From the IMG/VR virus record IMGVR_UViG_3300013130_001731, positions 1 to 21,918 of that record: a DNA stretch of 21,918 nucleotides, one strand, 5' to 3'. The stretch is from a virus. Shown here one piece after another: positions 3,320-21,080 of this stretch. Each line of letters starts with the position of its first letter. Within the stretch, counting starts at the first letter, position 1. The position numbers were made by a program, and so were the translations under genes. The notes beneath the pieces are model-generated. The model was not told the DNA's origin. It saw only the letters and a list, made by a program, of their open reading frames with translations, and did no database searches.

Positions 3320-6300
3320 TTATTTTCTAAACGTTCTTTTCAACGATGCGTCGGGAAGCTTGTCTGCTTCCGCATTTTGCCGTCCCAATGTCATCATCGA
3401 TGAAAGCTTTTCTGCAAGGGTCTGATTAGCGTCACTCACGCTAGAGTTCGCGTTAATTATGACGGGCTGCGAAACACCCTCTGATACTGTGTCCAGTCCT
3501 TTTTTGCTTGCAAATACGATTTTCTCGTAGTCTGCAATCTGAGCAGGCTTGTAGGATTTGAGCTGGTCCACCTTGGTCTTGAGCTCTTTGGGTTCAATCA
3601 AACCCGCCTCGACCATGCGGCCTGCAACTCTAAATGCCTCTGCCTCGGACTGCTTGGTATCGCTGCTTTCGTTTGCGATAACAGTACCTTTTATATTCTC
3701 TTGTTTCTCAGGGGCGATTTGCTCGCCTTCCTGACCAATCAACTGTTTGTCAGCCGGAATACTTGGTTGGTCTTTAGGAGCATCGGGCTTGTCGCCGACA
3801 ACTTCTTTTTCGTGACCAATGTAAGTTCCTTCCGACTTGGTGTTTTCCGGTCCCTTTGCGTCAAACTTAGGTTCCTTACCAATGGTGGAACCATTCTGAA
3901 CCGGTTGAATGTCTTTATCGTCGGCTACGGGTTTCGCGTCGTTAATTTTCTTCTGAGCGGCTTTAATGCGATTGACCAAACTGTCAATTCGTGACCGCGT
4001 ACTATGAATGCCTCGCATCGAAGCGACTTCATCGAGTTCTGCTTCTTTCTGCATTTCTTCCGCCGTCATCGCCGTGTCAGTCTTTCCTTGACCCTTGTCA
4101 CCGCCGGTCATGCTATGGTCGCCGCCGGTAAATCCAAGTTCCTTCTCTTTGCCAATTTCAGCCGAACCGGAAGGAATTTCCGGAAGCGGCTTATCCTTCG
4201 GATTCAAATCCGATGGCTCTTTGCCAATCGTGGCTTGAGACCGAGGAACATCAGGCTTCGCGGATTTGGGAGGATTTTCCTTCCCAATCGCTCCGGCGTT
4301 CTCGCCGCCGGTATAGCTTCCAATCTCTTTCGTGTCCTGGACCTTCTTAACGTCAACGGTTGCCGATTGAGCACTCTTGTTGATCACCGCTTGAACCTTC
4401 GACAGGTCAAGAGAGATTTTGTTGACTTTTCCAAAACTACTATTCATTACAGAAGCCTCTGCAAAACCGTAACCCTCTTCTTCATCATCGTCGCCTTCTT
4501 TGAAAGACTCGTTCTCATCCTTGGGTTCGTTTTCTTTCTGTTCCGATTCGCCGCCTATTTCTCCTTCTTCTTTTTCTTCTTTTTCTTCACTTTTTTCTTG
4601 AACAGGAGTTTCGGCGTTCTCATGAGCAGGGGTTTCGTCTGGGGTTACTGGGTCAACCGGAGCTGCGTCACCACCAGTTGGTTTTATTTCGACTGTTACA
4701 CCTTTGCCAGGTTCGGCCGCAGGTTTCTTGGTTTCGCCACCCATTTGAGCGGCACCCGCAGGAGCAGCTGTCGGTTCAATAACCGACTTCATACTTCCGT
4801 CGCCGTTCGCATTGCCCTGACTGACCGAGTCCATCGGAGGAGTCATTTCAACCGGTTTGGTTGCCTCGGCCGGAGTGCCTTCTACAGGCGGGGTTTCGGC
4901 AGGAGCCTCCATCGGGACTGCGTCAGCAGGAGCTCCTTCGGCTGGAGTGGCTTCAGGGGATATTGCACCTTCGCCGGTTGCCTTTTCAACCGCTTCGCTG
5001 ACTTGGACTGCGATATCTTTTGGAAGTTCAATGGTGATCATTTCGCCGCCATCGAACGGATCGTCTTGCCCGATACCATCCGTGGGAGGAGCCTCTTCAA
5101 TCGGGGCTCCGCCAGGACCACCCGGTCCTTCTGGCATATCTGAGGTTGTCGCTGTGCCCAACTCGTCGGCGAACATGTCGTCCGGTCCAGCCAGAGCGAC
5201 TTTCAAGAATTCGCAAACTGTTGCGGCTTGATTAAGACCCATGCCTTCGCGTACCCGGTCTTCAATGCATTCCTCAGAACCGGATTTGTCGCTCCAAGCG
5301 TCTGCAACTTTCAGGGCAATCTTGGTCGTGTAAACCCCAGCATTTTTGAGTTGCTGGCAGACACAATCAATGAGCTTCTGACCTTCGCAAGGTCCGCTGA
5401 TTGCCAACGCATCCTCACCGTAGCGGCGAGCCAATTTTTCGCGGCAGGCTTCCATTGGGAACTTCTCTCCGTATCCACCGTAGGCAACTTTGTAGTCGCC
5501 AATAATGTTTCCGGTCTTGGCTGCTGTTTTCACCATAGCTAAAGCTCCGGCCTGTCGCATCTGGTTAATGACCTTCGTCTTCTCAATAACGTCCATTGCA
5601 TCAAAGGCTTGCTGGGTTACATTGACTTTGGCGAGAGACTGGATAAAGCTCTCTTTTGCTCGCTGACAGCTTGGGCAATCCAATGAGGCAACACGGGGCT
5701 GCCAGGACCATTGGGCATAGATGCGTTTGCCTTCGCGGTCAGTTGCAAATTCGACTTTGTATTTTGTGCCCGTATCCAGGCAGATGTATTCGTTCTTGCC
5801 GACTTCAAGGGTGTTTGCTTTTCCGGTTGCCGGACTGATGGTCCCAAGTTTGACTTTCTTTTCGGCCAACTTCTGCATCATCTTTGGAGTAATAAGGGTC
5901 ATTGCAGCCACCTGAGACATTCCGCCGCCACCCATACCACCCATATCTGCACCGCCACCGGCCGCGCCAGGAGCGCCGCCAGGAGCTCCACCGGCACCTG
6001 GCATTTCGAAGCCTTCTCCGGCTCCGACTTTGCCACCTTCTTCCGCACCCTGTTCTTTGGTTTCCGGTATCATTCCGGGCCATTTGGTTACATCAATGTG
6101 TACTTTGTAAACAAATTCCGCACCGCACTCTTCGTTGTTGCATTTGCCCCTGCCCGCAACGACATCTACGTCGTCGGTTCCGCAAACTGGGCAAATGGTT
6201 CCTGGAGGAGCTGGTTCCATTGTGTCATCGTCTCCACCCATTCCCTCATCTTCGGGAAGGTTGAAGCTTTCGACTGGAGGCTGTTGAGCAGCAGCACCAG

Positions 6301-9300
6301 GAGCTTGTGGCATAGTCGCCCCAGCACCAGGACCGCTACCTAATCCGCCTTGGCCACCGAACTCGCCGCCGAACTGGGCGGTTTTGTTCATGGCCGCGGC
6401 TTTCTTAACAACCGCGTCTCGGGATGCAAAAGAACAGGGCTTTTCGCCTGGACCTTCTGGCTGACCGTCCATATTGACGATGTCCTCGACTGGCCCTTCC
6501 AACTCGTCTCCGGTTGCTTCAGGACCAACCTCTGGTTCGCCGCCAAAATCGAGGTCATCTTCGCCAACTCCTTCGTCACCTTCGCCCGCTTCTTTAGCGT
6601 CAATGATGACCGTGCCATCATCGTAGACCTTAATGTCCATTGTGACAGTGGCGACAGGGGTTCCGATTTCGCCCTCAATCTGTTCTTGTGCGAATTTATT
6701 TACAGAGGCAATGAACTTGCCTTTGTTTGACTGAATGTCGGCGGCTTTTTTAATTCCCAAATCTTCGAGCGTGGCCCGAATCTGATAGCGGCCATCTTCG
6801 GGCTTCTCAAGGTCGGAAATAGCCTGCTCAAACGCGGCTCGCTTGTCAACGACATTGTCCATTCCGACTGCGACGGACATGCCGTCGATAATTTCTTTGA
6901 CTTTCGCATCGACACGAGCCATCGCTGTCTTGTTGCGGATGACGGTCGAAACCGCATCAATCACGTCTTCTGCTTTCAGCCCCGTTTCCGCATTCGCGGC
7001 AATGGAGAAGATAAGAGAATCAACGGTCGTCGGTTCGACATCCTTAGAAGCCAATTTGGTGAAATAGGCAACCTTGGCCGCAATGCGGGTCAAATCTTCG
7101 CGTTTGTGGGGCAATGCGTTGATCAGTGCCAAATAAACAAACTTGTCTTTCGCGTTCTTGTTGTCTTCCAGGGAAGCCAGAACTTTACGAATCTCGTCTG
7201 GGCTCTTGTGATACTTGGCAATCGTTTCGGCAATAGCCTTTTCCGCAATCTTGATCAGGGTTTTCGGATACTCTGCCATTGCCCACCGCTTGATGCCTGA
7301 AGGACGTTTGTCAGCCTTAAGCTGGCCTTCGGTAATGACATCGGGTGTAACGAAAGAATGGTTGGACAGAAGATCCCGAAGCTGGGCTTCTGTGATAACC
7401 TTGGTATAATCCTCGCTGACCTTTGCGCCAACTGCTCGGCTGGTCTCGGTCCATTGTTTTTCGGTAATGACATCCGGGGTGTTGTTGAACCGGATAATGC
7501 AGTCATCTACCGCAGTAGCAAGCTGTCCCTCAGTGATGACATCGTAGGTTCCCTGCCGGACCTGTGGCGAACTGGAAGTCGTGTCATTAACGTCTTCTTT
7601 GCCCTTACCAATCTGTTCATTGCTTTCGGTAATGCCTTTGTAGGTCTCGCCGGTTCGAGGGTGAAGGTCGATATCCTGCTTCATGAGCTGCTTTTCGGTA
7701 ATGATATCGAGGTTTTCCTTCCCCGCCGCTGTTTTTAGGGTATTATCAGTTGTCATAGGTCCATTATTCTCCTTAACAAAGTTTTCTTTGAAAATTTCGA
7801 TGAAAGCCTCCTCAGGCTTTTCCCGTATCAATTTTTGGATGTTTTCCGGAAATTGGCTGATGTGGGCGTACTTGAGAATAGTGTCTCCCCGAGCAATGGT
7901 TACGGATACCCCATCCTCAGCATGGGCAATGATAGCCTGGCGAGAATTTGGATCATTGGGATTTTCCAACGCCGTAAACGATTTTGTAATCATTTTTTTG
8001 CTCCTGGCGAGTCTTTTGACGGAATCAACTATTTCGCTCACTTTTCTTTGTATATTGGCGTGTCCCCCAGAAAAGTCCTTTATTTTATTTGATGAAATTT
8101 TGGGCAGGGTCATGGTTCCCATGCCACCCAAATCCTGAACCTGCGAAGAACCCGCTGCCTCCGGCGACGGAGTTATCGGGGCAGGGGCTTTGGGGAAGGT
8201 AGAAACGGGCTGCATAGGAGCCGGGGACGCTCCCTCCAAGACATTTGGTGAGACAAGGTTTCCATACCCCATTTCCATCAGTTCGTCCGTCGATTCTTGA
8301 ATTTGAGCGATAATCTTTACGATGTCGCTGATGTACTCGACGGAAACCTGGTCTTTCTGTGCAAACATACTCTTGGCGACTTTTTCCAAGTCATCCATCG
8401 ATTGCTTGAGAAGCTGGAGTTCTTTGACCCCGGCTGTTTTCTTCATTTGCGTGTCGTCGGTCTGGATTTTCTCAGACAATTTCTCGATGCTTTGCCGAAG
8501 CTGACCCAGCTTTTTTGTAACCTCTGGAACGTGCAAAATGCAAGTTACACCACAAGTATGACAAGCAGGATTAACAACAAACGAATTCTCCACGAATTTG
8601 AGTCCATAGTTATGCTCGAAAACAGGGTAATCGGAAAGTTTGAAGCTCTTGACATCATCTTTGGTTGAGCCACAAATTGGGCAGGTTTCGTCTAAATCAC
8701 TTACACCGCTTTTGTGATACTCGCATTTATAGGCACCCGATACCTTCCTGTTTTTCTGATTTTTGATATGGCTGCAATATTCCGACTGATTGTGAGCTTT
8801 CCGGTGACAAACAGAACAAATACTATACTCGACACTACACCCCATACTTGTGTTTGACACAGCGAGATGATTAACACAGTAGGAGTGGTCTTCTTCAACT
8901 TCTATATCGTATACTGTTCCATTGAAATCAACTTCTTCTATTTTTTTGACCGGTCTTAACACAATATCTTTTGTAGAATGCCACCTCGCCGGACCAACCT
9001 CGTTTATTTTAGCCTGTTTATAAATAAGCTTTTCGCGTAAAGCTTGCGATGTTGTTAATCCAAAAATAACTTCGTGAACAGGTTTGTATCCCCATGTTCC
9101 TGTGTTTTTTCTAATTCTGTACCCTGTTCGTATTCCTATTTTTGATAATAGAATTCGCAATTGACTTGCTAAACCGGCAGAGACTATGCCGAATCCGTAG
9201 CTTTTAGACTTAACATTATATCCATCACCTTCCATAAACCCAGCAATAAGCGAGGATGTTTGATCTGTAGTCAAATCCATAAGTCTTTGATTCAACTTCT

Positions 9301-10462
9301 TTTTATCGCTGTATTCGCCGCATTTGTCGTAGAACCACTGTGCAATCTCTTTCCCATAGAGTGAAACTCTTGTTTGTGAAGCCTCGGGGTAAAAATTAAC
9401 CGTAGGTTTATTCGATGTCGGGAATTCTTGGGACAATAATTCTTCACACTTAAATGCGAGGGTATCCCTTTCATTGTGTGAAAAATTGAATATCACGCCG
9501 TTTCTTTTTCCCTGTCGTTTATCATAACTACCTTCAGCAAGGAATAATCCGATAAGAAAAGCCTGTCCATCAGTAATATATTCTTTTTCTTTTTCGCAGA
9601 GATATCTCGGTTCAATAAGAAAATCACCTTCTTGTATCTCATTGGCTTTTATTTTCTGGATATACTGGTGCTGTATTTTTTCACCTCGTGTGTTATGTCC
9701 TTTTACAAATCTTCTCTGGAATGTTTTTACTGTTATTCTACTGTCTTTTTTCTCTGGTAGTTCCTCACCACATCCACAGGCACAAATATTAGGAAGTCTA
9801 TAAACAAACAAATTGTGATATGATGTGCAAACGAGCGGTTGTTTAATCCCTTGAGCCTGTATCGACAGCATAGGGTAGGAATATCCCCTTTGCCTTATTC
9901 CAAGTACCTTCCTAATGTTTCCACGTCCAGATATGACATAATCACCATCTTCTATGTCGCAAATATTTTTTTCCGTTCCATCAGACATTAATACAGGAGC
10001 ATCGCCAGGAAAGCATCCGACGATGTATCCTTCTTCAATGCCTCTGGCTAATTTCGGATAGGCGACTTTATCTACGCGGGCAATAATGAAAATGCCGCCT
10101 GCAGCCTCGTCATACCACGAATGAACCACATCACCTTTTGCCTTCTCTACGTCATCATTTTGGTGATTTGTAAAGATAGGTACGCCAGTAAATGTCGGGG
10201 AAGCGAGACGAAGTTGTTCGGCGCTGAAAGAGTCGCCGTTGTCGTTAGGCTCATCTTTTTTGATGGCGAAGATTTTCACGAAAAGGTGGTCAGGATACTT
10301 CGTCACTGCCGTGTTCAGGTCGAACCCGCCTAAATCCGAATCCTTAGTAGTCTGGGCAACTTTGATGTTGTCCATATTGAAGATAGTCCATGACTCAGGC
10401 TTATTGAGAGCCTGAACGGGAACGTGGTCAAGACTAATTGTTGCGGTCTTAAGAAATGCCAT
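3320..10462 (-). CDS. Giant prohead protease-scaffold polyprotein (2380 aa) with intein
   Basis: The ATG at 10462 follows AGGA and overlaps the stop of the 89-aa gene by 14 bases; the frame is open further upstream but has no better start. Residues 1-149 and 538-650 form a prohead protease-like domain split by an intein. His100 (IFTNH) and Ser539 (TSMGCSVEY) fit the His and Ser of S78/S80-type prohead proteases. Cys/His clusters follow (CSVC...YCSH, CPIC, CHTC...C). Then come a coiled coil (about 645-735), a Pro/Ala linker, six I-T-E motifs (918-1048), a helical region (1055-1260), an acidic stretch, a Gly-rich segment around a zinc-ribbon-like CPVC...CNNEEC (1424-1446), Cys-containing helical regions to about 1757, long Pro/Ala/Glu-rich disorder, an acidic Glu/Lys run (1957-1996), I-G-K-E repeats (2058-2265) and a helical tail. 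Protease-scaffold fusions are known in phages and herpesviruses, but this length is extreme. It may be processed into several core proteins. Confidence 0.75.
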   Translation of the reverse strand: MAFLKTATISLDHVPVQALNKPESWTIFNMDNIKVAQTTKDSDLGGFDLNTAVTKYPDHLFVKIFAIKKDEPNDNGDSFSAEQLRLASPTFTGVPIFTNHQNDDVEKAKGDVVHSWYDEAAGGIFIIARVDKVAYPKLARGIEEGYIVGCFPGDAPVLMSDGTEKNICDIEDGDYVISGRGNIRKVLGIRQRGYSYPMLSIQAQGIKQPLVCTSYHNLFVYRLPNICACGCGEELPEKKDSRITVKTFQRRFVKGHNTRGEKIQHQYIQKIKANEIQEGDFLIEPRYLCEKEKEYITDGQAFLIGLFLAEGSYDKRQGKRNGVIFNFSHNERDTLAFKCEELLSQEFPTSNKPTVNFYPEASQTRVSLYGKEIAQWFYDKCGEYSDKKKLNQRLMDLTTDQTSSLIAGFMEGDGYNVKSKSYGFGIVSAGLASQLRILLSKIGIRTGYRIRKNTGTWGYKPVHEVIFGLTTSQALREKLIYKQAKINEVGPARWHSTKDIVLRPVKKIEEVDFNGTVYDIEVEEDHSYCVNHLAVSNTSMGCSVEYSICSVCHRKAHNQSEYCSHIKNQKNRKVSGAYKCEYHKSGVSDLDETCPICGSTKDDVKSFKLSDYPVFEHNYGLKFVENSFVVNPACHTCGVTCILHVPEVTKKLGQLRQSIEKLSEKIQTDDTQMKKTAGVKELQLLKQSMDDLEKVAKSMFAQKDQVSVEYISDIVKIIAQIQESTDELMEMGYGNLVSPNVLEGASPAPMQPVSTFPKAPAPITPSPEAAGSSQVQDLGGMGTMTLPKISSNKIKDFSGGHANIQRKVSEIVDSVKRLARSKKMITKSFTALENPNDPNSRQAIIAHAEDGVSVTIARGDTILKYAHISQFPENIQKLIREKPEEAFIEIFKENFVKENNGPMTTDNTLKTAAGKENLDIITEKQLMKQDIDLHPRTGETYKGITESNEQIGKGKEDVNDTTSSSPQVRQGTYDVITEGQLATAVDDCIIRFNNTPDVITEKQWTETSRAVGAKVSEDYTKVITEAQLRDLLSNHSFVTPDVITEGQLKADKRPSGIKRWAMAEYPKTLIKIAEKAIAETIAKYHKSPDEIRKVLASLEDNKNAKDKFVYLALINALPHKREDLTRIAAKVAYFTKLASKDVEPTTVDSLIFSIAANAETGLKAEDVIDAVSTVIRNKTAMARVDAKVKEIIDGMSVAVGMDNVVDKRAAFEQAISDLEKPEDGRYQIRATLEDLGIKKAADIQSNKGKFIASVNKFAQEQIEGEIGTPVATVTMDIKVYDDGTVIIDAKEAGEGDEGVGEDDLDFGGEPEVGPEATGDELEGPVEDIVNMDGQPEGPGEKPCSFASRDAVVKKAAAMNKTAQFGGEFGGQGGLGSGPGAGATMPQAPGAAAQQPPVESFNLPEDEGMGGDDDTMEPAPPGTICPVCGTDDVDVVAGRGKCNNEECGAEFVYKVHIDVTKWPGMIPETKEQGAEEGGKVGAGEGFEMPGAGGAPGGAPGAAGGGADMGGMGGGGMSQVAAMTLITPKMMQKLAEKKVKLGTISPATGKANTLEVGKNEYICLDTGTKYKVEFATDREGKRIYAQWSWQPRVASLDCPSCQRAKESFIQSLAKVNVTQQAFDAMDVIEKTKVINQMRQAGALAMVKTAAKTGNIIGDYKVAYGGYGEKFPMEACREKLARRYGEDALAISGPCEGQKLIDCVCQQLKNAGVYTTKIALKVADAWSDKSGSEECIEDRVREGMGLNQAATVCEFLKVALAGPDDMFADELGTATTSDMPEGPGGPGGAPIEEAPPTDGIGQDDPFDGGEMITIELPKDIAVQVSEAVEKATGEGAISPEATPAEGAPADAVPMEAPAETPPVEGTPAEATKPVEMTPPMDSVSQGNANGDGSMKSVIEPTAAPAGAAQMGGETKKPAAEPGKGVTVEIKPTGGDAAPVDPVTPDETPAHENAETPVQEKSEEKEEKEEGEIGGESEQKENEPKDENESFKEGDDDEEEGYGFAEASVMNSSFGKVNKISLDLSKVQAVINKSAQSATVDVKKVQDTKEIGSYTGGENAGAIGKENPPKSAKPDVPRSQATIGKEPSDLNPKDKPLPEIPSGSAEIGKEKELGFTGGDHSMTGGDKGQGKTDTAMTAEEMQKEAELDEVASMRGIHSTRSRIDSLVNRIKAAQKKINDAKPVADDKDIQPVQNGSTIGKEPKFDAKGPENTKSEGTYIGHEKEVVGDKPDAPKDQPSIPADKQLIGQEGEQIAPEKQENIKGTVIANESSDTKQSEAEAFRVAGRMVEAGLIEPKELKTKVDQLKSYKPAQIADYEKIVFASKKGLDTVSEGVSQPVIINANSSVSDANQTLAEKLSSMMTLGRQNAEADKLPDASLKRTFRK
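3668..4291 (-). repeat. I-G-K-E short-motif repeats in polyprotein tail
   Basis: Residues 2058-2265 of the polyprotein hold seven copies of an I-[GA]-x-E core: AIGKE (2058), TIGKE (2078), EIGKE (2102), TIGKE (2193), YIGHE (2214), LIGQE (2241) and VIANE (2261). They sit in disordered, Pro/Lys/Asp-rich sequence. Copies of TGG[ED] (YTGGEN, FTGGDH, MTGGDK) are interspersed. Irregular spacing argues for repeated linear motifs and not a folded tandem domain. Possible roles are protease cleavage sites or docking motifs for capsid or scaffold partners. Confidence 0.7.
7319..7711 (-). repeat. Six I-T-E motifs, candidate prohead cleavage sites
   Basis: Residues 918-1048 contain DIITEKQL (919), KGITESN (942), DVITEGQL (974), DVITEKQW (997), KVITEAQL (1021) and DVITEGQL (1041), spaced 20-32 residues apart in polar linker sequence. 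The core matches the (I/L)-x-E consensus after which the T4 prohead protease cuts. Here the motifs lie in the same polypeptide as a protease domain, so self-processing is an attractive reading. They may instead be conserved binding motifs of the scaffold. Confidence 0.7.
8852..10015 (-). other. Intein with LAGLIDADG endonuclease in the prohead protease
   Basis: A 388-aa intein occupies precursor residues 150-537, from CFPGDAPVLM to HLAVSN, and is followed by Thr538. Block A begins with Cys1 and block B contains TSYH (a TxxH motif). Two dodecapeptide motifs, LIGLFLAEG (intein 154-162) and LIAGFMEGDG (256-265), mark a LAGLIDADG homing endonuclease. Block F is seen as GTVYDIEVEEDHSYCV. The residue before the terminal Asn is Ser and not the usual His. 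A CACGC...GHN element near intein residues 78-107 looks like an added zinc-binding piece. The insertion is directly before the probable catalytic serine of the protease, so activity should require splicing. The DNA looks richer in A+T than its flanks. Confidence 0.92.
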
Positions 10463-10718
10463 GTTTTTCCTTTTTTGTATTCTGAGCGTATGTCTCGCTG
10501 AACTCGTATTGTTCCCGAGTCCAAGGTCGCTGCATCTGGAACGAAAGGTGTTGCCATTCTTTTGACACCAGGCTTTTCTGTTCCGGAGTAAGCGGGAGGT
10601 CAAGTATGCCGTCCTGGTTCTGAATAGTAAGCGTCTCACCGTCGAAGCTGATTTGGCCTTGAACAGGAGCGGCAATTTGAGCCGTTTTCTTGCGGGCTGC
10701 GATAATAAGTTTAGGCAT
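10449..10718 (-). CDS. Small unknown head-module protein, 89 aa
   Basis: The ATG at 10718 lies one base after the stop of the previous gene, with AGGAGG six bases upstream, so its translation is coupled to the 258-aa gene. The frame extends further upstream, but the ribosome site decides this start. The protein begins MPKLIIAARKKTAQIAAP, carrying a KTAQ motif at 11-14. A small beta-rich segment follows (GQISFDGETLTIQNQDGILDLPLT, shown here as one continuous hairpin-like region about 19-42). The C-terminus is charged and helical. No known family is recognised. It overlaps the start of the protease polyprotein by 14 bases, so the two are made together, which suggests a partner in head assembly. 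The coding call is good and the function is unknown. Confidence 0.7.
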   Translation of the reverse strand: MPKLIIAARKKTAQIAAPVQGQISFDGETLTIQNQDGILDLPLTPEQKSLVSKEWQHLSFQMQRPWTREQYEFSETYAQNTKKEKHGIS

Positions 10719-12020: not shown

Positions 12021-15000
12021 CTATGTCCCTATCAGAATTAATTGTCCCAGGTTCCCCTCTAACTCTTTTACGACAATTTTTGTTTCCTCCGGCCATGGAG
12101 AATCCTTATCGCCGGTTCGAGCAAAAGCGAGCTTAATCAACTCTTCGTTATCCTTACTATTCTCAGCCGCCTTCTTATAATCCTCCGCAGCATCCACAAT
12201 ATTCTTGTAAATCATATCCCGAACTTCTTCCGGGTTATCTGTTACCGCGTCCTCTTTAAACCGTAGGATTCTCCATCCCACATTGGCAAGCTTTTGGTCT
12301 CGGATTTGGTCCCGTTCCTGTGAATCAATCCGCTGGTGCCAAACGTTCCCGTCTGCTTCGACTCCGACCCCGATTTTGGGATAGGCAAAGTCGATCAAGA
12401 ATGGACGTTCTTCGCCAGGGACTTTTACCTGGTACTGTCCAAAAAGTTTGTACGGGACTTCAAGCTGTGTCAGTAATTTGTACATCTGCTGTTCCAACTT
12501 CGTCAGTTTAATCATTCGAGGTGGGGGAGCTTGAGCATGCTCTTGTTTCTTGTTTTTACCACGTTTGGTGATTTTCGGGGCCGCTGCAGCTGTCGCGCCC
12601 ATTCCGCCGGGTACTCCGCCAGTAGCTCCACCCATACCGCCCATCATTTCGCCACCAGGTGCTCCACCGGGAGCTCCGCCCAGGCCAACCGGAGGTGCCA
12701 TGCCGCCCTCCGGACCCATCGGTCCACCGCCACCGAGTCCACCCATGCCACCGAGTCCACCCATGCCACCCATCGGTCCACCCGCACCGCCCGCTCCACC
12801 TTTTTGTCCCATCATCATTCCGGTCGCAGAGACCATCTGCTGTTCTTCGCGAAGTCGTTGAATTTCCGTGTCATAGTCCAAATCGAGTTCTTCAAGAATG
12901 CATTGAGCACTGACAAAGCTTTTGTCGTAGCCTTGCATAAGAATTTGAATGTAGTTGGATTTGTCACGCAGCCGCATGTCATTCCACTTGATTTCAGGGT
13001 ATATGTATTCGGTGTCGCCACTGTTTTTGCTTTCTTCTTTGTCAACGAAACCTTGCATCATTGCAACCGGAAGGAAAATGTAAGCTTCCACCCATTCCTT
13101 AAGAATGTTTCGCCAATTTTCGAGTCGCCGAATAAGGCTTTCCACACCAACTTGGGCAGAGTTGTATCCTGCCATTTCGCCGTTCAACAAAGCTTGGTTC
13201 AACATCATACCGTCAAGAATTTCTTTGCCCAGTTGTTCGAGCTCTTGGGTAAGATTGTGAATTTTTCCCGTATTACCAACAATAAAAGGTCTGCCGTGAA
13301 ATCTGACAATCAACAGATTATTGGGCACAGAGAAACACCACACTTTTCCTGCGTAAGGAATACGATCAATACTGGTGACTTCTCTTTCATTTATTGATTT
13401 AATATCTGACCAATAGACTCTATATGTTTCTCCTCTTTGCTTCGTTTCGTTGCCTTTATCGAATCCTAATTTTGGCGAGAAGCCAAGCCGGAATATAATC
13501 TCACATACATCATCACCAAGTTGTTTAGACGCGGTAGTATATTTGAATTTATTGCCGTTGAGCATGGCGGCAGAATCACCATCTCCATCCATCATTGCAT
13601 CAAATAGAATTTGTAGATGTTTTTTGGGGAGATTCAAAATCCAACGAGGTATTTTCTTCCCTCTACATCCTATCCCGAATTCTTCCGCCATATATCGTGA
13701 TATCTCAACAGAATTGATTATAAATGTGTTAACAGGAACAAACCCTCTTTCGTCTTTATGTGTAGAATAAGAACTGTAAACCTTACGAACAATATTCTCA
13801 ATCTTGCCATAACAGGGTTGGTCACTTTTTTGCGTTATCCCCATTGCTTGAATCTTTTTATCTTCGGACAATCCACGGTTGCTCTCTATCTTGATGTGTC
13901 CCTCCGATAGGAAATACCCTGCAAATGTCAGAAATTCATCAAGTGACAGGTGAGATAATTTTTCTATTTTTTGATAAGGAAGGACATCGGGAGTTGCTCC
14001 ATCCCAATCTACCTGTGAAAGGAATTTGTAATGTCTTTTCATATCTTGAGACATCACGATTTCGTAGTTATGTTTCAGTGATTTACGAGTAAACATTCGG
14101 TGGTTTGGAGTAACGGGTATATTCATGCATTTACTTCTAAAGTTGTACAGACCGCCATATACATCTGAATCGTAATCATATTCATACCGTTCAATATAGT
14201 TGTGGAACTCCATTTTTCCAGTGTTAGCGTTGTAGGTTGCAAGTTTATCCGATTCTTTCACTTCCCTGTATGTTCTCCATCCGTCTGGTGTTAAAACTTG
14301 CACATTGTCATCGTCTGGAAAACAGGCACCGTACCATTCATATTCGAAGGCGTGGTGTGTGACAATGGTAAGGTTCGGGTCATTAGCAACAGCAGCGAGC
14401 TGTGAGACAACATCGGCAATAGCTGCATCATCGGCAGGACGCTCTGCATCCCCGACCTTAACGACGCGAATGGGAAGAATCAACCGTTCCGCCACAATCC
14501 AGTTGGCGGTCATAATTTTGGTTTTGTATGCGAGTACCGTAAACAATCGGCGAATCAAAGAGATACCGTAGGTTCCATAGGGGCTCGCATTGTGTTTGAG
14601 ATGACTAATGCACCGTGGGGATAGAGGGATAGGTTGTCCAGAAGCAACTAACTCGACAATTTTCGGGTCGAGGCGCTCGTAGATATGTCGCGGCTGTTTC
14701 CGCTGAACGATAGCCCGCAACTCGTCGTCGGGCATCAAGGCATAGGCCGGCTCGCCCGCAATCATGCTGTCTTGGACGACGACGAAATCGGGGTTAAGTA
14801 CACGGATTTTCCCGAAGGAACCATCAGGGTGGTTACATTGTTCGGATTTGCCATGTTCCTTGACGAAGCCTCTGCCTCCGCATTTGGGGCATTTAATTTC
14901 GAGGAATGGGAAAACGTCGCCCAGCATGAAGTATTCGTGGCTGATGTAGCTGAGCCATTTGTTCAATTCGAGTTTCTTGACGAGCTTTTCGTAATATCGC

Positions 15001-15402: not shown

Positions 15403-17292
15403 CTATACATCCTCCAGGCAGAGAAAGTCACACGCATTTTGTACAGCAATCTGCCTTCGGATTTTATTAATATAATCGTCTTTTGGGGAAGGAGAAGTTT
15501 CGTTTACTTCATCGTCATCCGAAGGATCGGCCATTTGTTTGAACTCATCGCTCATAAAAGTTTCTTTTATTTTGGGCGTTTCGACTTTAATGTGATTGGG
15601 CTTTTCTTTGCGAGCCGCAAGAACATCGAGCTGCCGAATGAAGGTATCGCCGGATTGCTGTCCCTGTGGATCGGGCCCAAGTTTTACCGTACTGGTGTCG
15701 ATGGGATGTGCGTTGTCGTACCCACAGGACGAACACCGGGTTTGGCCTTTGGGTAGAATACTCCCGCAGCCTTGACATTTTTTGATTGTCTCTTTGGGAA
15801 CGTACTTCTTTTTAGGGTGCATCGGGTCTTCCGATAGCGGTTGGATAGGCTCTATCGGGGAAAAGGGTTTAATTTGGGCTTCCGCTCTCTTTTTTTTTTT
15901 AGAGCAGGAGAGAACCAGGTTGACTCCCGTTTCCGATTTTTTGCCGTGTTGTTTCTCATATTCTTCTGCCACTTCTTGCTTAGCACCGAACCAGGATTCG
16001 ACCGAACCATCCATGTCCTCCGCATTGTGATGGTCTTTGACGGGAGTCAGGGGGTCGGTTCCACCGTAAGAAGATGGGTTGTGTTTGGTACGAGCTTCTT
16101 TGTCGTCAGCTTCTTTGGTAGTTTCCGACGCTACTTTTACTTCCGGATTTTTCTGATCGTCTTCTGTCCAATCAAACGGGGCGAGGTCTTTTTCTTCCTC
16201 AGCTCGTTTTGCTTGCATCCGCGATTCCATACTCCCGTATTCAGGTAGCCGGGGTTTCCGTTTCTGGCCCGGTTTCAGTTGGTAGTTGTTTTGTTCCGGG
16301 ATATTTTTGTCCACCTCAAACCGTTTCTGGATATATCCACCGACCCAGTTCCCGTCCTTGTCGCGGTATGGCTGGGAATACTTGTCCATAATGGTGTTGC
16401 GCCAGATAGATTCCCAGTCGATGTTCCAAATATCTCCCACTTGTAACCCAAAGCCTTTGTTGCGTTCTACCAAATGCCAGTCGGAAATCGGTTGGCGGGA
16501 GAATGGGTCAACGCGAACCTGGCCTGGACCCCACATAATCGTGTTCTGGAGGGTCTGATGCTGGGCGTACTTTTTTAGATTGAATTTTTTACCAGAGACC
16601 GAGGCTTTGGCAGATTTCTCAATCGCCGCATTGGTCTCTTCAACTATCTTTTTAATTTCTGTGTTCATGGACCCACCTTTACTGAAAGTAGCAGGAATCT
16701 CTAGCTCATTTTGGGCTACATCCCCCGAAAGCACTTCAAAGAAATTGGCAACCTCTTTCCATTTGTCCGTTTCGGTCATTCCGGTCTCGTAGTAGCGATA
16801 CAGGAACTCAGCCAGGGCATTTTTACCAGCTTCGCCCGAAACATGATCATACAATTGGTCCTTAGCCGTCTGCTCATCCACTTGGTCCAGCCATTGCTTG
16901 AGTTGGCCTGGATCTTGAAATTGCTGGGCTACAGGCGATGCCGGGTTCTCCGTCGTTTCTTGGGACGGCATGTCCAATCTTGGGTCCGTCCCTAACTCGT
17001 CCACCATCGGGCCATCCATCATCTGGGCTTTACGAAGGTTAAAAACCTTACGCGATGCCGCTGCCCCCATTCCCACTTGTTGGCTTTGTTCCATCGATTG
17101 GCCGTAGCCCTGGGCCTGTTGGGCGACGTTCTTTACCTCTTCCATGAGCTGGTCCCCAATCTGGGCTTGCTGTGATAACTGTTGAGCCATTTCCACGATC
17201 TCGTCGGGGTTGTCTGGCACCTTCATGCCATTCGTCTGAATGAGTTGAATGGCACTGGCGATTTGTTGAGGATCATAAGCACCAATTGGCAT
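15403..17292 (-). CDS. Unknown virion-module protein with zinc ribbon, 629 aa
   Basis: Starts at the ATG at 17292, whose A is shared with the upstream TAA (TAATG), and ends 22 bases before the portal start. The N-terminal 75 residues are Gln-rich and helical. FNLRKAQ (84-90) and KKFNLKKYAQ (235-244) are two forms of the motif shared across the block. Between them is a folded helical segment (QLKQWLDQVDE...LAEFLYRYYETGMTETDKWK). Residues 250-345 are aromatic and probably folded (IMWGPGQVRVDPFSRQP, DIWNIDWESIWRNTIMDKYS). The rest is charged and disordered, with a zinc ribbon C506-x2-C509...C520-x2-C523. A run of eleven A encodes Lys465-468; slippage there would remove the zinc ribbon. The position just before the portal suggests a portal-associated, terminase-related or internal-head protein. 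No family is recognised. Confidence 0.7.
   Translation of the reverse strand: MPIGAYDPQQIASAIQLIQTNGMKVPDNPDEIVEMAQQLSQQAQIGDQLMEEVKNVAQQAQGYGQSMEQSQQVGMGAAASRKVFNLRKAQMMDGPMVDELGTDPRLDMPSQETTENPASPVAQQFQDPGQLKQWLDQVDEQTAKDQLYDHVSGEAGKNALAEFLYRYYETGMTETDKWKEVANFFEVLSGDVAQNELEIPATFSKGGSMNTEIKKIVEETNAAIEKSAKASVSGKKFNLKKYAQHQTLQNTIMWGPGQVRVDPFSRQPISDWHLVERNKGFGLQVGDIWNIDWESIWRNTIMDKYSQPYRDKDGNWVGGYIQKRFEVDKNIPEQNNYQLKPGQKRKPRLPEYGSMESRMQAKRAEEEKDLAPFDWTEDDQKNPEVKVASETTKEADDKEARTKHNPSSYGGTDPLTPVKDHHNAEDMDGSVESWFGAKQEVAEEYEKQHGKKSETGVNLVLSCSKKKKRAEAQIKPFSPIEPIQPLSEDPMHPKKKYVPKETIKKCQGCGSILPKGQTRCSSCGYDNAHPIDTSTVKLGPDPQGQQSGDTFIRQLDVLAARKEKPNHIKVETPKIKETFMSDEFKQMADPSDDDEVNETSPSPKDDYINKIRRQIAVQNACDFLCLEDV
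15890..15900 (-). repeat. Homopolymer tract of eleven A (coding strand)
   Basis: Eleven consecutive A encode KKKK followed by R within the 629-aa gene. Reading one base more leads to a stop after about KKKKESGSPN; reading one base fewer leads to a stop about fifteen codons on. Tracts of nine or more A often cause transcriptional slippage in bacteria and are also error-prone in sequencing. The frame is intact as given. Confidence 0.9.
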
Positions 17293-18755: not shown

Positions 18756-19310
18756 TTATCGTTTTGCGAACATGAGATCGACGTATTCAGCAGGATAAAC
18801 TTTTTTCCACTCGTCCATTTTGGCCTTGCGTTCGGATTCATCGGTCAGGTTACTGATTTTGATGAACTTGAAAACCGATGCGGCTTTGCCACACTGGCAG
18901 GGTTTCTTTTCTTCGGCTTTCGCGTCGGATTTTTTATCTTCTTCGGCTTTCGGATCCTGCATGTTGTTATTCTTCTTCTCGCCTTCCCATTCCGGCTGAC
19001 CGCTCGACGGGGCTTCGGTTTTCTCGGTCTTGTTTTCTTTGACCGTGGCCTTTACCACATCGTCTTTCTTTTCGGTCGCGGATGGCTTTACCGATTCACC
19101 CTTCTGGTGAAGAGGCTCAGGATCCAACTGTCCGCTGGACGGAGCTTCGTCGGCTTCTTTTTCGGCAACCTTGACCTCGGGCTCAACTACCGCAGCGGTT
19201 TTAACAACCGGAGCACTGGCAGCAGCCTTTTTCTGGAGGTGGTCTTCGACGATTTCTTTCAGCGTCCGTCGAGGTTTCCCTGTTGGAATTCTGTTCGTGA
19301 TCAATTGCAT
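18756..19310 (-). CDS. Unknown Lys/Glu-rich protein with conserved-looking C-terminus, 184 aa
   Basis: The ATG at 19310 follows AAGGAG. A short basic N-terminus (NRIPTGKPRRTLKEIVEDHL) leads into about 110 residues of Ala/Lys/Glu/Pro-rich disorder, with two copies of EAPSSGQ (EAPSSGQLDPEPL and EAPSSGQPEWEGE). A CQC pair is followed by a compact C-terminal domain (KAASVFKFIKISNLTDESER, then KMDEWKKVYPAEYVDLMFAK). The long charged linker between two short ordered ends fits a scaffold-type or tether protein. The 57-base gap before it contains its ribosome site and an A+T-rich stretch with no convincing promoter. No family is recognised. Confidence 0.7.
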   Translation of the reverse strand: MQLITNRIPTGKPRRTLKEIVEDHLQKKAAASAPVVKTAAVVEPEVKVAEKEADEAPSSGQLDPEPLHQKGESVKPSATEKKDDVVKATVKENKTEKTEAPSSGQPEWEGEKKNNNMQDPKAEEDKKSDAKAEEKKPCQCGKAASVFKFIKISNLTDESERKAKMDEWKKVYPAEYVDLMFAKR

Positions 19311-19367: not shown

Positions 19368-21080
19368 TTAAAAACTCCTTTGTAAAATCCACTGTTTAAC
19401 CGATGCCGCTTTCGCTTCCGGTGCCGGAGGCAGCGTTGCAGGAGTTGTACCTGGTGCTGGAGCCGGAGCTTCTGGAGCCTTGCCCGCTCCGTTCAACTTT
19501 TTTGCGAAAACATTTATGGCTTTGGCGATTTCCTGAATGAGAGCTTTTTGTTGGTCCGTTAACTTACCGATATCGATGTTGGGTTCAACTGTAGGGTTGA
19601 CCAGTATCTTCATAGCGGCGGCTTTCACCGGCTCGCGAATAATGTCGCTTACGGCGGCAATTGTGTTCTCGTCGAGCTGCGGAATATCTGCGGCCGGAGC
19701 TGCGGCCGGAGCTGCGGCCGGAGCGGATGCAGGAGCTGCTGCCGGAGCTGCACCAGGAGCCACACCAGCGGATGGACCTGCACCTTCCTGTCCGAATGGT
19801 CCTTCTTGGGGCACCGCCCGGCCAGAACGAATGTAATCTATAGCTTTAACAAGAGACTGGAGCGGCATAATAAGGTCGGTAGCCGGTAACTTTGCTCCTT
19901 TGCTCCACCACTGATGGTGAGCTGCGACATAATTATGCACAGCATCCGTTGCCTGGTCAACCATCTGTATAGTGCTTTTGTCCTTCGTTTGCTGTCGTTC
20001 ATTTGTCAGTTGATTTCCTATTTGGCTAAGATTTGCATAGAAGCGGTTGTAAATCGCTTTGAAAAGCTGTTCAGGGGTCCGCTGCGGCATTTTGGGAGCT
20101 GTGGCTGGTTTTTTCGATACAGGTGCTTTCTGATTTTGGTTCTGAGCGGCTGCGTCGCCTTTAAAATCGAACATCTGCTGCGTCACGCCACCGTTTTGTA
20201 GAGTCAGGGGGTTGTCTTTTTTGCCCCAATTTTGGAGGGTTTCTACACTTCCAGGAGCTTTACTGATTTGGTCATAGACTTCGCCCGCGTATTTGATGAA
20301 TTCGGCGTAGTTGAAAGCATTTTTGCCTTTACCTTTCGCCGGTACGGGTATCCGTTGCATCCGGTTTACCATATTCATAACCGTCCAAGCAAGATTTTTA
20401 AGTTCGCCCAGACTGTCCATAACACGCTGTTTGATATTCGATGCGGAGTTTTGCCCCCACGTAAAAGGGTTCCACCACCGACTTCCCGGCTTCAATGCCG
20501 TTTTCAATAGTTCATCCGATGCTGACGCAATTTTTTCTGCGAGCTCTTTCTGTCCGGAACTGGCAACCTGGCTAGAAAGGGAAACCAAGTCAACCGCCGC
20601 ATCAACCGCTGCGTGGCGAAATCGAGAGCCGCCTTCTTCCATCGTAATGTAAACTGCATTCTCAAAAGGGATACCTCTCGCAACTTTTTCATGGACGGCG
20701 TTGTTGAAGAACTCGCGTTCCTGATCAATCCACGCCTGTGTCTCTAAGTCGCCCGATGCCATCTTCAACATCTCCACATCTTCTCCCGCGTACTTGTCCC
20801 ATTTACTGTCATTTTCATTAATGGAAGCGAGATACTCTTTGTGACATTCGGACCAGACCTCTTGGGCGGGCATGTTTTTGTTCTCGGTTCGCTTGGTGCG
20901 ATAACAGTTATCCCAGCACCGCCGGTTCCGAATCCAATAGCCCTGAATACCTACATACTGTGCGGTTTTGAGGCCAAGGATGTTATTCATGATTTGGGTA
21001 GTTCGGTCGGCCTGTTTGGACATCCCCAACTTTTCCAAGCTGTCACCAATGTCTTTGAGACGGATTAAAATTTGGTCCAT
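19368..21080 (-). CDS. Unknown large virion-module protein, 570 aa
   Basis: The ATG at 21080 has GGGAA just upstream and lies 16 bases after the WYL-like gene. The N-terminus (LKDIGDSLEKLGMSKQADRT) is a helical segment of a kind seen at the start of many environmental phage proteins, followed by LKTAQY (37-42). A Cys motif, RRCWDNCYRTKR...WSECHKEYL (about 53-83), may bind metal. The region 90-200 is helical (DLETQAWIDQEREFFNNAVH; then HAAVDAAVDLVSLSSQVASS). The middle holds WWNPFTWG and further helices. A Gln/Pro linker (about 305-335) and an Ala/Pro/Gly linker (about 430-460) separate helical domains, the last being about 465-535. The C-terminus is Pro/Ala-rich. No signal peptide or membrane helix is seen. 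The modular helical build suits a structural or internal-head protein. No family is recognised. Confidence 0.7.
   Translation of the reverse strand: MDQILIRLKDIGDSLEKLGMSKQADRTTQIMNNILGLKTAQYVGIQGYWIRNRRCWDNCYRTKRTENKNMPAQEVWSECHKEYLASINENDSKWDKYAGEDVEMLKMASGDLETQAWIDQEREFFNNAVHEKVARGIPFENAVYITMEEGGSRFRHAAVDAAVDLVSLSSQVASSGQKELAEKIASASDELLKTALKPGSRWWNPFTWGQNSASNIKQRVMDSLGELKNLAWTVMNMVNRMQRIPVPAKGKGKNAFNYAEFIKYAGEVYDQISKAPGSVETLQNWGKKDNPLTLQNGGVTQQMFDFKGDAAAQNQNQKAPVSKKPATAPKMPQRTPEQLFKAIYNRFYANLSQIGNQLTNERQQTKDKSTIQMVDQATDAVHNYVAAHHQWWSKGAKLPATDLIMPLQSLVKAIDYIRSGRAVPQEGPFGQEGAGPSAGVAPGAAPAAAPASAPAAAPAAAPAADIPQLDENTIAAVSDIIREPVKAAAMKILVNPTVEPNIDIGKLTDQQKALIQEIAKAINVFAKKLNGAGKAPEAPAPAPGTTPATLPPAPEAKAASVKQWILQRSF
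19690..19725 (-). repeat. 12-bp tandem repeat coding for an Ala/Pro linker
   Basis: Three consecutive units of GCGGCCGGAGCT (last base differs in the third) lie in the gene of the 570-aa protein and encode an Ala-Pro-Ala-Ala repeat. Degenerate copies continue to about 19760. This is a flexible linker that probably changes length by slippage. Confidence 0.85.

Follow-up and report, generated by a model that had tools for sequence, protein, structure and literature searches.

A probable nested protease/scaffold gene, interrupted by an active-site intein, in the head-gene cluster of a large tailed phage

Head genes and the long reading frame

The window, by which we mean the whole 21,918-base stretch of viral DNA analysed here, carries a run of head genes in the order portal, protease/scaffold, cement and major capsid protein (MCP), and nothing else lying between the protease and the MCP is a candidate for the scaffold (Table 1). 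The protease/scaffold gene is the 2380-aa frame (1992 aa after splicing) to which the earlier note had drawn attention, and it is indeed uninterrupted from its ATG to its stop codon on the minus strand. No tRNA or Rfam matches were found within the 21,918 bases. In the neighbouring portal gene, the C-terminal domain is of the DUF559/MTES_1575 type (Vsr-like nuclease fold); among the homologues tested with Pfam, the same portal-nuclease fusion occurs in L010, L028 and L034; the phage G, E3, Myrna and I3 portals showed no sign of it. Further along the window, positions 18756-19310 (minus strand) encode a Lys/Glu-rich protein of 184 aa with a repeated EAPSSGQ motif, the product of a small gene that is kept upstream of the portal in relatives, and a 12/24-base tandem repeat at 19674-19760 corresponds to the Ala/Pro-rich linker of a 570-aa protein.

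Table 1. Features of the head-gene region, in window coordinates
Feature	Position	Strand	Remarks
Portal protein, 1119 aa	12021..15380	-	own 351-aa intein 14324..13272; C-terminal DUF559 nuclease-like domain 12404..12198
Full-length protease-scaffold gene	10462..3320	-	ATG 10462, stop 3320; 2380 aa, 1992 aa spliced; kept in 45 homologues
N-extein, first part of prohead protease	10016..10462	-	catalytic His100 at 10165-10163, NHQN motif; PHROG matches
Intein, 388 aa, residues 150-537	8852..10015	-	Cys1...Ser-Asn, +1 Thr; LAGLIDADG homing endonuclease
C-extein	8519..8851	-	catalytic Ser (extein 151, codon 8848-8846) in TSMG; CxxC...CxxH-type Cys module, further CxxC pairs
Predicted coiled-coil/helical linker after protease	8261..8518	-	conserved alignment block
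Internal start 1	ATG 7993-7991	-	SD AGGAG at 8001-8005, spacing 7; at beginning of optional module
Optional module, ~78 aa	7757..7993	-	in about half of homologues; begins with internal start 1
Internal start 2	7754..7774	-	SD AAGGAG 7774-7769, ATG 7756-7754, spacing 12; position conserved in 41/45 homologues
Predicted scaffold-only product, from start 2	3320..7756	-	1478 aa (1557 aa from start 1); inferred from start signals
Repeated (D/E)xITExQ(L/W) motif region	7319..7708	-	0-6 copies per homologue
Conserved helical region, short beta segment at end	6596..7303	-	alignment; pLDDT ~75-84 in parts
Zinc-ribbon-like CPVCG...CNxC module	6074..6217	-	weak resemblance to ribosomal/eIF2-beta Zn ribbons
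Two conserved domains	5180..5902	-	SPATGK... module with CPSC; Cys-containing helical module FPIESCxEKLARRFG
Low-complexity acidic linker	4436..5044	-	least constrained gene segment
Repeated [IM]GxE motif region	3719..4435	-	spacing ~20-28 aa
C-terminal conserved helical hairpin and tail	3323..3649	-	candidate capsid-binding end of scaffold, role inferred
Head decoration/cement-like protein, 215 aa	2644..3291	-	Pfam, PHROG
HK97-fold MCP, 290 aa	1696..2568	-	56% identical to Bacillus phage G gp27

A scan of viral contigs returned eleven close relatives of the gene, one of them on a contig of 547,943 bases. Their frames are 1835-2305 aa long and show no break, the shorter ones being shorter because the intein is absent. 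Searching by alignment with three parts of the gene (protease, middle and C-terminal) brought the number to about 50 contigs. In 45 complete IMG/VR homologues all four gene segments lie within a single frame, with a spliced length of 1761-2033 aa (median 1912). A scan of genome contigs yielded a single, short MAG contig and pointed to no host. For close pairs in which dS is not saturated, dN/dS is 0.04-0.3 in the gene segments; the one higher value, 0.47, belongs to an acidic linker in a single pair. Judged by these ratios, purifying selection acts on every segment of the gene wherever dS can be measured.

The earlier note had named relatives with intervening stops as the outcome that would expose the frame as an artefact; such stops are absent in nearly all of the ~47 relatives. 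The frame is broken in three contigs, by frameshifts in L063 and L066 and by a single in-frame TGA in L051. This TGA (IMGVR_UViG_3300009149_010517, 15800-16010) detaches the last ~350 aa exactly where the [IM]GxE module starts, and homologous sequence goes on beyond it in the same frame. The L066 frameshift (6200-6310) falls within the intein, just past its first residues, and may reflect a sequencing error, a broken allele or a split intein.

The Cys-rich modules that had been described from the window alone are present, as are long acidic or Gly/Pro-rich stretches, and both are conserved in the homologue alignments. The order is protease, Cys module, helical linker, optional 78-aa module, ITE-motif region, conserved helical region, acidic linker, zinc-ribbon-like module, two conserved domains, long acidic linker, [IM]GxE region and C-terminal helical end. 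Structure prediction was of little help: AlphaFold gave an unusable model of the protease and coil from a four-sequence input (pLDDT 36) and a pLDDT of 50 for the middle 859 aa, and confidence for the two conserved domains was too low for a fold call. Comparison of the middle-859-aa model by VIA gave a best Z of 4.2, with nothing above background; PDB profile searches with three gene segments produced no significant match, nor did sequence and fold searches of the C-terminal part against known scaffolds. For the C-terminal hairpin, comparison with phage G gp21 and with the actinophage C-terminus gave a suggestive pattern and a top rank, but with such insignificant scores (E 3.6 by hmmsearch; hhalign probability 13%) we do not claim homology.

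The statement that known protease-scaffold fusions are several-fold shorter was too strong. Actinophage relatives of the gene measure 895-1408 aa (I3 gp103, 1408 aa; Grungle 85, 1286; ScoobyDoobyDoo 90, 1257; Myrna gp97, 1211; Stormageddon gp13, 1089; Pupper 94, 1082), and the excess is 1.4- to 2.2-fold.

The protease domain and its intein

The N-terminus resembles head maturation proteases, in agreement with its first assignment. It matches phrog_2774 (E 3e-14) and phrog_18299, 'head maturation protease' (E 4e-7), and the latter match recurs in homologues (E 4e-11 in L010, 6e-16 in L050); gp77 of Rhodococcus phage E3, which it also resembles, is a 'prohead protease'. Pfam Peptidase_S78 and S78_2 match over the right region, below cut-off. 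The SMG motif is found in 47/47 homologues, as well as in G, E3, Myrna, I3, Stormageddon and LE2-3. It is preceded by NHxN, which is present in all 47 homologues but one with a broken frame; in some of them the regular expression caught an earlier EHPD or DHPD, and there the alignments show NHQN. Two database names deserve comment. Gene 71 of Eggerthella phage LE2-3 (L004 11884-14997), annotated 'tRNA synthetase', encodes another prohead protease, whose intein follows SMG. The family phrog_27806 bears the name 'DNA methyltransferase' but matches these phages in the protease domain (for instance in L050 9878-15160, residues 65-210, E 4e-13), which suggests a misnamed or fused family.

The intein of the window is inserted directly 5' of the catalytic Thr-Ser-Met-Gly of the protease. 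LAGLIDADG_3 scores above the Pfam cut-off, and Intein_splicing and Hom_end_hint fall just below theirs. At the same insertion site the intein is absent in L007, L009 and L010 and present in L016. The element thus combines the splice-site residues, the splicing and homing domains, and the precise absence in close relatives that mark an intein. Of 46 classified homologues, 18 have inteins, as the window does, at one of three points round the protease active site: before TSMG (the window, L016, L060, L047, L100 and L075), after TSMG (twelve homologues), and at a Cys of the adjacent Cys module (L011).

Internal start sites

At the junction before the ITE region, the alignment contains a conserved Met column. 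A Shine-Dalgarno (SD) sequence of at least 4 nt precedes this Met in 30/30 homologues that have it, and one of at least 5 nt in 28/30; the background for all internal Met codons is 26% and 9.5%, respectively. The SD lies in differing codon registers according to lineage (AAG GAG versus ATA GGA G). Homologues with another residue in the column have a start nearby, and a few homologues use GTG or TTG. By automatic count, an in-frame start with an SD core lies in the junction window of 41/45 homologues. Elsewhere in the gene, the next best non-overlapping window of the same size reaches at most 14 homologues, and the median is 1. When synonymous codons were shuffled within each gene, the junction window gave 5.8 +- 2.2, with a maximum of 13 against the 41 observed, and therefore the amino acids do not explain the junction start. 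With spacing held strictly to 5-10 nt, the count is 30/45 (8.3 in shuffles), or 21/32 (5.6 in shuffles) among representatives less than 60% identical. SD-plus-start pairs elsewhere in the gene are depleted (89 observed versus 134 in shuffles), and the junction region is less structured (mean z +0.86).

A strong SD start also stands at the beginning of the optional module in 11 of the 26 homologues that have the module (shuffle mean 0.58, maximum 3). A third internal start, in the C-terminal module (Met 2006), was tried and rejected, being present in 8 homologues against 5.4 in shuffles. We conclude from the sequence comparisons that one or two internal SD starts behind the protease are selected beyond amino-acid requirements. 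One caveat concerns the window itself. Its start 2 has a spacing of 12 nt, as in ten other homologues, which exceeds the spacing of the cement and MCP starts (6-10 nt) and makes the strength of start 2 in this phage uncertain. The full-length start of the window has a weak SD (AAGGA at 10468-10472, spacing 5). Across homologues, a 5-nt SD core precedes the full-length start in 1/47, the cement start in 34/44 and the MCP start in 30/38. The weak signal at the full-length start fits a minor long product.

The same feature is seen in cultured phages. Seven actinophage protease genes were compared (I3, Grungle, Myrna, ScoobyDoobyDoo, Pupper, Stormageddon and Rhodococcus E3), and their alignment has exactly one column in which SD-preceded starts occur in at least three phages; there they occur in 7/7. 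The start is ATG, with AAGGA, GAGGA or AAGGAG 7-9 nt upstream. Shuffling of codons over 1000 trials gave a mean of 1 and at most 2/7. In the region of the start, I3 and Grungle are identical and Myrna and ScoobyDoobyDoo are 78% identical, so the seven phages amount to about five independent lineages. The predicted short products are 389-447 aa long; for I3 gp103 the start would be codon 1011 and the product 398 aa. The genes of cluster C mycobacteriophages and relatives share with that of the window a homologous protease (SMG, NHxN, CxxC...CxxH), the gene order, a single long frame and the internal SD start; they differ in their length, in having no intein, and in C-terminal parts that are not recognisably homologous (weak hhalign match). 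In Myrna the protease-scaffold gene is gp97 (L003 11917-15552), which had been noted as 'tape measure'. In open-licence papers, we did not find a nested start described for cluster C actinophages or huge phages.

A nested protease/scaffold gene

Because the internal SD starts are conserved, the gene is best read as a nested protease/scaffold gene. We consider it probable that it is a head-assembly gene of a large tailed phage, belonging to the head lineage of Bacillus phage G and the cluster C actinophages, and built in this nested way. The fusion of protease and scaffold proposed in the earlier note is well supported by the single frame in homologues, and the C-terminal part probably has the scaffold role, as its place in the gene order and its composition suggest. 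The sequence shows a single frame, conserved over 45 diverse homologues, in which a prohead protease of the Ser/His type stands at the N-terminal end with its Cys module, and some ~1500 aa of other modules (helical, Cys-containing, disordered acidic) come after it. Ribosomes would make two kinds of product from it: a full-length protease-scaffold in minor amount and, as the major product, a scaffold free of the protease. The C-terminal part that the two have in common would let them assemble together into the prohead core and so bring the protease inside the head. The protease would be active only once the intein that interrupts its active-site motif has been spliced out, and would then cut itself free and digest the scaffold before DNA packaging. 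Such self-cleavage of the protease from the scaffold is likely by analogy with SPN3US gp245, which cleaves off its own 64-residue C-terminal propeptide and makes several cuts in long propeptides (PMC10052503).

Among other explanations, the earlier note had raised that of a viral-type polyprotein, in which the protease cuts its own full-length chain into several mature head-core proteins that the virion retains; the internal starts would then be of secondary importance or not used. The gene does consist of one long frame with several discrete conserved modules joined by linkers, and proteolysis of the own chain is normal for this class of protease. The Glu-ending repeats ITE and [IM]GxE, the latter numbering 190 against 14.1 +- 3.2 expected, resemble the small-x-Glu sites of jumbo-phage prohead proteases (SPN3US, PMC10052503). 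Neither motif is universal, however: 8 homologues have few copies of [IM]GxE, and for ITE the count ranges from 0 to 6. We also rejected both as general cleavage sites, since no conserved sites of this kind were found in other head proteins and the IGKE of the portal lies within the conserved fold. Moreover, conserved internal starts would already supply separate products, which can therefore arise by initiation and not by cleavage alone. On balance we regard the polyprotein as rather unlikely to account for the gene; as a description of the processing step it is possible, with [IM]GxE as a candidate cleavage motif.

A more elaborate idea, which we offer as a speculation with a small chance of being right, gives the intein the role of a timer. 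Inteins sit in the active-site segment of the protease, and therefore the long product would assemble in the prohead core as an inactive zymogen that splicing switches on. Nested starts downstream of the intein would give protease-free scaffold at once, and the [IM]GxE and ITE repeats would be sites for dismantling of the ~1500-aa scaffold by the protease once active.

It is also conceivable that the gene is a relic of fusion, in which adjacent protease and scaffold genes were joined by loss of a stop codon, leaving the SD and ATG functionless and the long protein as the only product. Met is conserved at the junction, and separate protease genes exist in distant relatives: phage G gp19 (300 aa), Tunturi_5 gp331 (288 aa) and a protease of 474 aa in LR745208. 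These phages have a homologous protease and a homologous MCP (56%, 32% and 37% identity, respectively), and differ from the window in that the protease is a gene of its own with separate acidic genes after it (gp19-gp21 in phage G, gp331-gp332 in Tunturi_5). In Tunturi_5 and LR745208 a separate acidic gene (529 and 422 aa) stands before the decoration and MCP genes. Of the segments of the long protein, for which the earlier note had proposed a search for separate genes in relatives, the protease is a gene of its own in these phages; the other modules were not recognised there. A functionless signal would decay, yet the SD has been kept against synonymous drift in homologues less than 60% identical, in differing codon registers, and in actinophages as well. 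We therefore think a mere relic very unlikely, while the separate protease genes of distant relatives make a fusion with the internal start retained the likely history.

SD-like elements can slow ribosomes, and the internal sites might accordingly be pauses that aid co-translational folding or intein splicing and not starts at all. To this we give little credence, since the site is kept in intein-free homologues, an in-frame start codon follows at start-like spacing in nearly all homologues, and SD-plus-start pairs are depleted in the rest of the gene. An origin of the long frame in errors of assembly or of frame can practically be dismissed: against the three relatives with a broken frame stand 45 independent contigs in which it is intact, with dN/dS far below 1.

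The nested protease/scaffold gene, if correctly read, would be a design common to a whole lineage of large phages and to related, culturable mycobacteriophages, in which it was previously unrecognised. It would bear on capsid size and core composition in phages with very large heads. The M. smegmatis phage genes concerned carry no annotation beyond 'hypothetical protein', 'capsid maturation protease' or 'tape measure'; the reading would correct their start sites and product lengths, and would account for the lack of a separate scaffold gene in the annotations.

Parallels are to be found in several systems. The assemblin-scaffold pair UL26/UL26.5 of herpesviruses has a nested protease-scaffold design, with the scaffold made from a separate internal transcript. 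In phage lambda, C and Nu3 form a nested protease/scaffold gene. Overlapping C/nu3 are drawn in the literature (PMC11739229). In phage Mu, the scaffold Z starts in frame inside the protease gene I, and Mu and PaMx73 both show the nested arrangement before the decoration and major capsid genes (PMC4378225). Like Mu I/Z and lambda C/Nu3, the gene described here has an N-terminal protease, a putative scaffold that is the 3' part in the same frame with an internal SD start, and decoration and MCP genes after it. It differs in being four to five times longer, with several Cys/Zn-like modules, an active-site intein and, in many homologues, a second internal start, and the likeness is one of organisation. 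With SPN3US gp245, phiKZ and T4 gp21 it would share self-cleavage and head-core processing at small/hydrophobic-x-Glu sites (PMC10052503); those proteases are encoded by short separate genes, whereas the gene here has a candidate cleavage motif only. The nested protease/scaffold gene, a device familiar from small phages, would recur here at giant size and also, unannotated, in laboratory mycobacteriophages.
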